Assembly (NCBI RefSeq): GCF_034480035.2
Contig: NZ_CP118753.2
Coordinates: 1,831,426 to 1,895,425 of the forward strand
DNA: 64,000 bases
Reading direction: 5' to 3'
From: Methanosphaera sp. ISO3-F5
GTDB lineage: Archaea; Methanobacteriota; Methanobacteria; Methanobacteriales; Methanobacteriaceae
Shown: positions 667 to 10,827 of the stretch, piece after piece
Layout: each line of letters opens with the position of its first letter
How positions within the stretch are numbered: position 1 is the stretch's first letter
Program-made: the position numbers and the translations under genes
Notes under the pieces: model-generated
Seen by the model: the letters and a program-made list of their open reading frames with translations, nothing else
Told to the model about the DNA's origin: nothing
The model's database searches: none

Positions 667-2868
667 CTATTTCACACTAAAACTAGACTTAACACTAGTC
701 TTTTTATAATTAGTACTGCCTGCAAAAGTTACTGTGACAGTGTTGGTGCCTTTGGTTGTTTTGTAGTTGTATGTGTATACTCCCTGTTTATTGGTTTTTA
801 CACTCACTGTTTTCTTGTTGATCTTGATTTTTACCAGGCTGTTCATGACTGGTGATTTGAGGTTGTCTGTTAGTTTACCTGTTATTTTTATTGTTTTGCC
901 CTTGTTTGTAGTTGAGATTTTATTGACTGTTAGTTTGGTTGCACGTGTTACTGTTTTAAATGTGGTCTTCTTTGTCCCTGCTTTGTAGTACTTGTTTCCT
1001 GCATAGGTTACTGTTACGTTATTGGTTCCTACCTTATTGGCTGTAACCTTGAGGCTGTATATTCCTTTGCTGTTAGTTTTTACGGTGTATGTTTTCGTGT
1101 TTACTTTAACTTTTACATTACTATTTTTAATTATTGTACCTGTACTATCTGTTAGTTTACCGGTTATTGTCATGTTTTGTTTATAGGTTTTCTGTGCTAT
1201 CTTGGTTATTGTGGCTTTTGTTGTTCGTTTGGTGACTGTGAATGTTGTTTTTGCAGTGCTTGTATTATATTGTTTGTTGCCTGCAAAGGTTACTGTTATG
1301 TTATTTTTTCCCAGTGTATTTGCTGTTAAACTAACTGTGTAAATACCATTGGCATTTGTCTTATTAGAGTATTTTTTTCCGTTGATTATGATTGTTATTT
1401 TAGAGTTTATTATTTTATTTCCATCAATGTCAGTTAAATTTCCTTTTATTGTTATTTTATCTTTATATTCCTTGTTTTTTGGAGCATTAATGTTTATTTT
1501 TGTGTATGTTATTCCGTCATCAAATATATTATTTGTTATTGTAGCTGTTTCTGAACTTGTGTGTATGGTTGAACTATAACTTGAATATTCCATATTTTTA
1601 TTATTTTTTATTATTGTTTCTGTATCATTTATTATTGATTTTCCTGTTGTTTTTGCTTTGTTTTGTTTGAACGTGTTGTTTTGTATTTTCATGGTTTTGG
1701 CTTGATTATATATGGCTGATCCATTAATGGCTGTATTGTTTGTGAATATGTTTTTATTGATGTTTAAGTTATTTGATCCACAATATTTCCAATAGTCTCC
1801 GGGCCATGTTATATGTTCATATCCTCCTTCGTTGAATATTGCTCCACCATTTTCATTTGCATTGTTATTTTGGAATGTATTTTGAATTATGTTGTTGCTG
1901 CTTCCATAATTATAGATAGCTCCTCCTTCATATCCAGTATTTTTATTAAAAGTACAGTTTTTAATGGTGATGGAAGAACCATAAGCAGAAATTGCCCCAC
2001 CACTCGACTTTGCATTATTATTGGTAAAAATGGTGTTTTTTATCGTGGCTTTATCACCACTAAATCCATAATATATTGATCCACCATCAAATTCAGCATA
2101 ATTGTTATTAAAATATGAGTTAGTAATGCTTAGATTTCCTTTGTCGAAATATATTGCCCCACCACTGCTTGCAGTGTTGTTTTCGAATCTACAGTTATCA
2201 ATAATTATGGTTGCTCCATATTCATTAAATATTACTCCACCGGAACTGCCACATTTGTTATCTGTGAATACACAATTTTTAATATTTATATTACTATTTT
2301 CAGTAGCAGATATCACTTTGTCATTATTATTGGTAAATGATGAATTTATCAGAGTTAATTTTCCATCATAAACATTAATGACTCCTTTGTAACTTGAACA
2401 TTCAGTAACCTTAATGTCACGTAATGTTACAGTTTTTGTATAAAAATCGAGGAACATATACTTATTATCACCATCAATGGTCTTTCCATTACCATTTATA
2501 ACAACATTTTTATATTTATAGGATATTCTCATGTCATTTTCTAATTTAATGTTTGACTTTAGATTAATTGTTAAATCTTTATAGTCTGTTTCATCATCTG
2601 ATAAAGCCGAATATAATTCTTTAAAGTTGTTTGCATCCACACTATTTGCTTGTTTATTATTTTTCTCTTGTTGAGTTATCTTCATTATTTCTTTATTATG
2701 ATTGGCTTCTTCTTTTATTACACTTTGTTCTACTCTTTGTGTGCTTGTTTGTACTGTTGTTGGTGTATCCTTATTACTTGTTGTAGTGTTGCTTGTTTCT
2801 GCTGCGTAGGATACACTTAACAGTAGTAGAATTAGTGTAATCAGTAGGATGATTTTATTTTTCTTCAT
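667..2868 (-). CDS. Secreted adhesin-like protein: beta-helix plus three Ig-like repeats
   Basis: 733 aa. Residues 1-22 form a signal peptide (KK then a Leu/Ile-rich core ending SYAA). A Thr/Asn/Gln linker follows to about residue 80. From about 85 to 440 there are repeated units of the type NCTFNKN...GGAIYN, the signature of a right-handed parallel beta-helix as in archaeal adhesin-like proteins. From about 455 to the end there are three Ig-like units of about 90 residues, each with the pattern TITGKLTD...TNSKGIY...VTYAGN.YY. No membrane anchor is seen, so attachment to the pseudomurein wall is presumably through the Ig-like tail. It ends without the longer conserved tail of the giant paralogs at 27-44 kb. 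GGAG lies about 12 nt upstream of the ATG. Its promoter contains a C13 tract (see 2906-2940). Likely role: adhesion to host, mucus or partner cells (inference). Confidence 0.85.
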   Translation of the reverse strand: MKKNKIILLITLILLLLSVSYAAETSNTTTSNKDTPTTVQTSTQRVEQSVIKEEANHNKEIMKITQQEKNNKQANSVDANNFKELYSALSDDETDYKDLTINLKSNIKLENDMRISYKYKNVVINGNGKTIDGDNKYMFLDFYTKTVTLRDIKVTECSSYKGVINVYDGKLTLINSSFTNNNDKVISATENSNINIKNCVFTDNKCGSSGGVIFNEYGATIIIDNCRFENNTASSGGAIYFDKGNLSITNSYFNNNYAEFDGGSIYYGFSGDKATIKNTIFTNNNAKSSGGAISAYGSSITIKNCTFNKNTGYEGGAIYNYGSSNNIIQNTFQNNNANENGGAIFNEGGYEHITWPGDYWKYCGSNNLNINKNIFTNNTAINGSAIYNQAKTMKIQNNTFKQNKAKTTGKSIINDTETIIKNNKNMEYSSYSSTIHTSSETATITNNIFDDGITYTKININAPKNKEYKDKITIKGNLTDIDGNKIINSKITIIINGKKYSNKTNANGIYTVSLTANTLGKNNITVTFAGNKQYNTSTAKTTFTVTKRTTKATITKIAQKTYKQNMTITGKLTDSTGTIIKNSNVKVKVNTKTYTVKTNSKGIYSLKVTANKVGTNNVTVTYAGNKYYKAGTKKTTFKTVTRATKLTVNKISTTNKGKTIKITGKLTDNLKSPVMNSLVKIKINKKTVSVKTNKQGVYTYNYKTTKGTNTVTVTFAGSTNYKKTSVKSSFSVK

Positions 2869-2905
2869 TTCTGGTCACTTTTTCTCCTATTCCTTTTTTT
2901 TGATA

Positions 2906-2940
2906 GTTTATATTGGGGGGGGGGGGGAATTATTTATATT
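2906..2940 (-). promoter_or_regulatory. Promoter of the adhesin gene interrupted by a C13 homopolymer
   Basis: Read on the minus strand, the order is AATATAAATAATT (2940-2928), thirteen C (2927-2915), AATATAAAC (2914-2906), then an A-rich leader with GGAG and the ATG at 2868. Either AT-rich box can serve as TATA. If the proximal one does, transcription starts near 2884 and the C-tract occupies the BRE position; if the distal one does, the tract lies between TATA and the start site. In either case a change in tract length would alter promoter geometry. Confidence 0.55.
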
Positions 2941-3171: not shown

Positions 3172-3212
3172 GGGGGGGGTGGTTCATGGGGTGTGTCATC
3201 GTTTGACACCCC
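3172..3212. other. G8 tract and GC hairpin
   Basis: Eight G at 3172-3179, then an inverted repeat GGGGTGT (3188-3194) / ACACCCC (3206-3212); with a 2-nt bulge the pairing extends to TGTCA/TGACA. It lies just beyond the 3' end of the minus-strand pseudogene ending at 3232. No T-run follows on the minus strand. Function unknown; notable because such GC-rich sequence is rare in this DNA. Confidence 0.45.
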
Positions 3213-3231
3213 TAATCAAACAGGCATTAAA

Positions 3232-3920
3232 TTATATAAAATAGAACCAGGTTGTCATTTTTTCTTTATATACAAAGTTATATTCAATTAATAATTTCAT
3301 ATCTCTTCTAGCTGTTGATTTTGAAATTTTAAATAAATTTATATTCTTTATAAGTAATTTGGTTGATTTTTTTCATGTTTTTCTAAAAATTCCTTTTGTC
3401 TATTGTTTAAATGATTATAATTATTATTGGTTCTTTTTTTGTTTGTTAGTAGTGTTTGGTGTAATTAATCTATTGTTTGGACCATATAATACAACTTTAT
3501 AGAAATTATTTTCATCACTAAATTCGGGTTCTGGAAAACCGTGTTCTTTCATAGTTTTTCTCATCATGCTTATTCCAGTTCCAACATGCTCCATATATTT
3601 AGTCTTACTTGGTATATCAGTAATTCTTGGATTTCTGTGAATAGGGTTTTTTTGTCTTACCTAACTGATCTATTGTTAAAGGATATGGTAATCGTCCCGG
3701 ACTAATTATTTCAATTCTATCAGTATAAATGTAAAATGTTATGAAACTATTATCAAAATCATAGTCTCTATGTGCTATGGCATTAACAATTGCTTCTCTT
3801 ATGACTTCATATGGATATTCAGGAACTTCAATACTTTAAAACCATTAATAACTAAACCGTGTTTTGTATTTTCATTAATAAAAAAATAATTTAATTTTAG
3901 AATTGATGAAGATGTTAAGT
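3232..3920 (-). pseudogene. Decayed RecG-like / AlbA_2-type ATPase (C-terminal half)
   Basis: Three consecutive frames on the minus strand together give a family-like sequence. The first piece (about 3890-3838) reads FFINENTKHGLVINGFK. The second (3834-3655) reads VPEYPYEVIREAIVNAIAHR then DYDFDNS and IEIISPGRLP, the typical core of the RecG C-terminus-like (HATPase_c_4) family. The third (3650-3480) reads NPRITDI...VGTGISMMRK...GFPEPEF. A remnant of the C-terminal winged helix follows (LNNRQKEFLEK, SKSTARRDMKLL) to a stop at 3232. At least three frameshifts and the absence of the N-terminal DNA-binding domain show that it is dead. These proteins are usually putative transcriptional regulators or defence-associated. 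Confidence 0.75.
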
Positions 3921-6156: not shown

Positions 6157-6291
6157 CTAAACAGCATGAACCTTACCATCACAACAACCATTATTAATTG
6201 TTAAAAATCCATTATTTGTTTTACCTTTTGTAATGGTCAGATTTTCTAGAGAATAATTTCCAGAATATGTATTAAATAATGAACTATTTTA
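6157..6291 (-). pseudogene. C-terminal scrap of an adhesin-like protein
   Basis: Minus-strand frame of about 44 codons ending at TAG 6159-6157. It contains NSSLFNTYSGNYSLENLTIT and KGKTNNGFLTINNG, typical of the beta-helix strands in adhesin-like proteins (ENLTI..G...). No start, no signal peptide and no Ig-like repeats, so it is a remnant left by deletion or recombination. Confidence 0.5.
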
Positions 6292-6462: not shown

Positions 6463-6473
6463 GGGGGGGGGGG
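6463..6473. repeat. G11 homopolymer tract
   Basis: Eleven consecutive G in AT-rich DNA, about 170 bp upstream (minus sense) of the adhesin scrap ending at 6157. Its position relative to an adhesin relic recalls the C13 tract in the promoter of the adhesin gene at 667-2868, suggesting it once served the lost gene (inference). Confidence 0.6.
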
Positions 6474-10745: not shown

Positions 10746-10827
10746 ATAAAGATTAACAGATAATCCTAGGTCATCATCCCCCCCCCTTTTTTAGAAATTT
10801 TAGATAATATTACTATCCATACTCACA

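Follow-up and report, generated by a model that had tools for sequence, protein, structure and literature searches.

The stretch of DNA analysed here (the window, 64,000 nt from Methanosphaera sp. ISO3-F5) carries on its minus strand a gene for a 733-aa adhesin-like protein (ALP). The predicted product combines a signal peptide, a right-handed beta helix and Ig-like (Big_3_5) repeats, as seen from the open reading frame and Pfam matches, and by these features it is an ALP of the Methanobacteriales type. The nearest named relative is a goat jejunum Methanosphaera MAG, in which the adhesin is 100% identical. The features of the upstream region, and the other C/G tracts of the window, are as follows.

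667..2868, minus strand: 733-aa ALP gene (open reading frame; Pfam PF13229, 8.8e-11; PF16640, 2e-17)
2875..2887, minus strand: putative Shine-Dalgarno-like stretch, GGAGAAAAAGTGA
2907..2914, minus strand: TATA-like box 2, AATATAAA, abutting the C13 tract on its downstream side; putative function
2915..2927, minus strand: C13 tract (G13 on the plus strand), -47 to -59 from the ATG (2868), leaving a gap of 46 nt
2931..2938, minus strand: TATA-like box 1, TATAAATA, 3 nt upstream of C13 and kept in the goat MAG; putative function
3172..3179, minus strand: C8 tract, 303 nt upstream of the 733-aa ALP gene; C6 in the goat MAG
6463..6473, minus strand: C11 tract, ~180 nt upstream (coding sense) of an adhesin fragment at 6169-6285 (minus strand)
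10778..10786, plus strand: C9 tract, intergenic, with no adjoining adhesin gene

A C13 tract upstream of an adhesin-like gene

A preliminary description of this DNA placed a C13 tract between two TATA-like boxes before an adhesin gene, and this arrangement is confirmed at 2915-2927. As a simple repeat the tract has no interruption and enough length for slippage, and it stands upstream of an ALP gene. That such a run is improbable by chance in AT-rich DNA is borne out by shuffled and Markov-simulated sequences: C8 is matched 13 times in the window where 0.14 matches would be expected, a number reached by none of 100 shuffles, and C/G runs in 40 simulated windows attained at most 7-10 nt, varying with Markov order. 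The 7-mers ATAAATA and TATAAAT are over-represented 20-75 nt upstream of genes; a promoter PWM search was uninformative in such AT-rich DNA. No known RNA family was matched in the C13 region or in four leaders searched, and no orthologous promoter was found in other species, the adhesin being species-specific with a next best match of 28% identity.

The G8 (3172-3179) and G11 (6463-6473) runs reported alongside C13 are both present, as C8 and C11 on the minus strand. The C8 tract sits past a hairpin, GGGGTGTCA..TGACACACCCC, itself downstream of a degenerate gene. The "adhesin relic" described near G11 is real but is only an internal fragment, which matches an ALP encoded in this genome at 57% identity across 35 aa. 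A degenerate gene between a DUF4143 ATPase gene and the adhesin (window 3200-3850, minus strand) resembles, by eye, an ATP-binding/helix-turn-helix regulator.

The whole genome (2.68 Mb, two contigs) carries 29 C/G tracts of at least 9 nt, nearly all outside open reading frames; beyond the window, the analysis covered these 29 loci, the upstream regions of 58 ALP genes and a spread sample of 400 kb. C/G tracts recur in 20/20 genomes of the genus that were searched. In the wider family they are present in 54 of 80 genomes and absent from the remainder, and some genera have many; two genomes from other genera of the family (G025 and G032) have 42 and 21 tracts of at least 9 nt, above most relatives.

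G:C tracts differ between strains

The goat record and the G010 genome are probably one and the same assembly, and the strain data therefore amount to a single comparison. In the goat MAG the C13 allele is C5-T-C4 (10 nt), in flanks that are ~98% identical, so that tract length, which the preliminary description proposed to compare between strains, is not the same in the two strains compared. This sole other allele is interrupted by a T, for which reason it is probably stable, with low slippage expected; a tract able to switch back was not found in the one strain compared.

When tracts were picked in ISO3-F5, 16 had a clearly aligned orthologue in the goat MAG, and 15 of these differ (for example 10 to 5, 11 to 5, 11 to 8, 13 to 11, or interrupted). 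As picking long tracts biases the comparison toward loss, the selection was reversed to start from the MAG; 10 of the 11 tracts with an orthologue again differ, one being longer in ISO3-F5 (11 to 13), and change thus runs in both directions between the two genomes. With both selections pooled (two loci are common to them), 24/25 long C/G tracts are unlike in the two genomes, either in length, with a difference of at most 6 nt, or through an interruption. When flank-checked runs of at least 8 nt were considered at the compared loci, all 14 G:C runs differed from G010 (the one at L046 only at its edge), and 12 of 21 A:T runs of 8-10 nt were unchanged, with length changes of 1-2 nt in this class. 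The G:C tracts are the unstable class, with the caveat that they are also longer than the A:T control runs. Near-identical leaders within G016, which we take to be M. stadtmanae DSM 3091, differ mainly at the tract (C9 against C13 at 95% identity; C12 against C9 at 98%).

Two tracts of the conspecific MAG (G11 at L181 995 and G9 at L187 1002) stand where a Shine-Dalgarno sequence would lie, 6-8 nt ahead of the start codon; of the corresponding runs in ISO3-F5, one has 5 nt and the other is interrupted.

Tracts often precede adhesin-like genes across the genus

ALP-type genes, defined by a signal peptide and an Asn/Thr/Ser-rich composition, were counted when they lay no more than 500 nt downstream of a tract of at least 9 nt. 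In six genomes, 37/88 tracts precede such a gene: 6/29 in ISO3-F5, 8/15 in the conspecific MAG, 0/6 in G003, 4/12 in G008, 10/11 in G016 and 9/15 in G001 (15 of whose 21 tracts were examined). Nine of the G016 genes downstream of tracts carry Big_3_5 repeats, and of four G001 genes checked against Pfam, three are backed by scores above or close to the cut-off. For G016, the 10 tracts observed before ALP genes compare with 0.66 expected given ~34 ALP genes and a non-coding share taken as 16% (15.1% was measured in ISO3-F5); the nominal P of 6e-12 is too small because of paralogy. The ALP-associated tracts fall into at least 13 leader clusters, a lower bound, since BLAST clustering is loosened by AT-rich matches, and the leaders of paralogues do not count as independent cases. 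From these genome comparisons, hypermutable tracts ahead of adhesin genes look like a real feature of the genus.

The ISO3-F5 genome itself shows a weak tendency of this kind. Six tracts precede ALP genes against 2.2 expected (P 0.02), two of them in one leader, and among ~61 ALP genes only one has a long tract within 150 nt. When 58 further ALP genes of ISO3-F5 were surveyed blind to tracts, three had a long tract within 500 nt and none had one within 150 nt. Specificity for adhesins is consequently not upheld in this genome, where the preference for surface products is weak, as against the genus-wide set.

Promoter geometry

Nine of the G016 tracts, at 128-228 nt upstream of the ATG, have C on the coding strand, and the tenth, at 409 nt, has G there; the nine of G001, at 157-235 nt upstream of the ATG, have G on that strand. 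The window tract, at 46 nt, differs from the 128-440 nt of most others. Since the coding strand bears G in G001 and C in G016, the tracts cannot all be explained by one RNA-level or strand-specific mechanism. TATA-like hexamers in G016 cluster 20-50 nt upstream of the tract, a hint, and only a hint in view of the relatedness of these leaders, that the tracts would lie near the start site. Several G016 ALP leaders (L251, L255-L258) have an inverted repeat, AACTAAGA..TCTTAGTT, between tract and ATG, whose arms vary among paralogues.

The archaeal BRE directly adjoins its TATA box. The proposal that C13 switches expression by changing the BRE/TATA spacing is rejected on this geometry: the tract lies 3 nt downstream of box 1 and within the BRE position of box 2, so that its length alters no BRE/TATA distance. 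An altered distance between TATA box and start, or altered melting, would more likely account for any effect. An invertible promoter was dropped because tract orientation is nearly uniform within each genome. Two G001 ALP genes are broken in frame around codon 100, but no long C/G tract coincides with these breaks.

A candidate slippage-prone promoter element

We propose that C13 is a slippage-prone G:C homopolymer belonging to a genus-wide set that favours ALP upstream regions, and that it makes adhesin expression heterogeneous; to this reading, which derives from sequence comparison, we assign a probability of roughly 0.4. Replication slippage would add or remove C's and thereby alter the core promoter. 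Were box 1 the active one, the start site would fall ~6-8 nt past the tract, which would fill about -19 to -7; tract length could then shift start-site choice, and the G:C content would oppose melting. If box 2 is used, the tract would occupy the BRE. Adhesin expression would become heterogeneous in either a graded or a switch-like manner, as at bacterial SSR contingency loci.

Phase variation by these tracts is plausible on the genomic evidence. The switch suggested in the preliminary description gains from the strain difference, the C/G hypervariability and the genus-wide concentration before ALP genes; it loses its mechanism and its specificity in the ISO3-F5 genome, and the goat allele is interrupted.

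About level with regulation stands a neutral explanation, which may well be correct, in which slippage lengthens and erodes short C-runs of AT-rich non-coding DNA with no regulatory effect, and the tracts pile up upstream of adhesin genes as these regions are long, duplicated and weakly constrained. Tracts at many non-adhesin sites are equally variable, and interrupted forms such as C5TC4, G3AG7 and G4AG2 resemble stages of repeat birth and decay. A report on M. stadtmanae likewise describes mononucleotide repeats as extreme in intergenic, not coding, DNA (PMC4060949). Relaxed constraint alone, however, hardly explains why the tracts before adhesin-type genes in G016 and G001 (10/11 and 9/15) are nearly all 128-235 nt from the ATG and uniformly oriented within each genome, and the 13 or more leader clusters also speak against it.

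Tracts just after stop codons

A second group of tracts bears on the regulatory reading from another side. In the six genomes, 33/88 tracts follow a stop codon by no more than 65 nt and have C on the coding strand, against 5 that have G; this class overlaps the ALP-upstream class, as one tract can be in both. Shorter runs share this bias, with C-runs of at least 5 nt found 0-60 nt past the stops of 16/372 genes in a 464-kb sample, against 4/372 for G, and T-runs are common directly behind them. Post-stop C-runs (of at least 4-5 nt, growing to 9-13) occur genus-wide, for example at L200 1666, L045 4057 and L037 4030. They are possibly an archaeal 3'-end or terminator element. We know of no such element. 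At these 33 tracts a promoter role is not evident, which counts against the regulatory reading.

C13 might accordingly be a normal post-stop run, perhaps tied to transcript 3' ends and expanded by slippage, that was left behind by a decayed upstream gene. The strand bias of both long and short runs agrees with this, as does the C8 tract at 3172, past a hairpin downstream of a gene relic. C13 itself, however, lies ~105 nt past the nearest relic stop with no T-run behind it, and most G016 and G001 tracts are not close to a stop; we consider this origin unlikely.

The G4 of Neisseria pilE marks sites of recombination, and the G:C tracts might similarly mark gene conversion or recombination among adhesin genes, with no part in promoter control. 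The conserved tract positions in recently duplicated adhesin leaders would fit, and the opposite orientation in two species suits a role at the duplex level, but homology runs through the tract on both sides, and this explanation seems very improbable. Least probable of all is that the homopolymer lengths are an artefact of assembly or sequencing; single N's directly after three ISO3-F5 tracts might be cited for this, but it is hard to square with tracts throughout the genus and their absence from some family genomes, with the conserved tract-bearing paralogous leaders of G016 and with the interrupting bases in the conspecific MAG.

Relation to known phase-variable systems

Promoters of the Bordetella fim genes undergo phase variation by slippage in a poly-C tract. 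The Methanosphaera tracts are like these in being C-tracts of similar length upstream of an adhesin, with lengths differing between isolates. They are unlike the bacterial promoters, where spacing to an activator is altered, in their archaeal TATA/TFB setting, in the putative nature of their effect on expression and in a tract position that varies by gene. Phase variation in the haloarchaeal virus phiCh1, which concerns an adhesion protein in an archaeal system as in the candidate described here, works by DNA inversion, as opposed to the slippage proposed for Methanosphaera. The phase variation of phiCh1 as such is credited to Klein et al. 2012, cited in PMC8651126.

Among bacterial adhesins, Neisseria meningitidis nadA has a repeat tract that causes differential spacing of distal promoter elements (PMC2791445) and, like the tracts considered here, is a simple repeat outside the coding region; unlike tracts known from sequence, nadA comes with a repressor, NadR, and a demonstrated effect. 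The promoter repeat of Helicobacter pylori sabA acts as a rheostat (PMC4081817) and is likewise a simple repeat in an adhesin promoter region; its graded effect is experimentally established, whereas Methanosphaera has a G:C tract seen in genomes. The M. stadtmanae report agrees with our data on a genus-level homopolymer excess in intergenic DNA, and differs in that its text, in the portion available, does not resolve C/G tracts, their position upstream of adhesins or strain variation (PMC4060949).

Slipped-strand phase variation is described in bacteria, and a 2025 review leaves its archaeal distribution to future work (PMC11868660); we found no described archaeal case in the literature searched, subscription papers lying outside that search. 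We therefore advance, rather tentatively, the broader suggestion that Methanosphaera, including the human commensal M. stadtmanae, may have dozens of G:C-tract loci that stochastically tune adhesins through the core promoter or start-site region, which would be the first archaeal slipped-strand phase variation described. If the tracts do switch adhesins, gut methanogens of humans and ruminants would bet-hedge their surface proteins, with a bearing on attachment to host or partner, escape from viruses and immune recognition.

Other tract-bearing loci

Tandem units of ~22 nt with C-runs occur at L041 4020-4053 and L031 7748, adjoining a transposase-like gene, and several related copies are present in the conspecific MAG. 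A provirus at L044, whose genes include terminase, ParB-like and ABC/acetyltransferase genes, carries G11 tracts within reading frames at two places (4995 and 6657, corresponding to G000:C1 1505594 and 1507256), and beyond each tract the frame continues with a shift; these tracts are candidates for coding phase variation or for decay.
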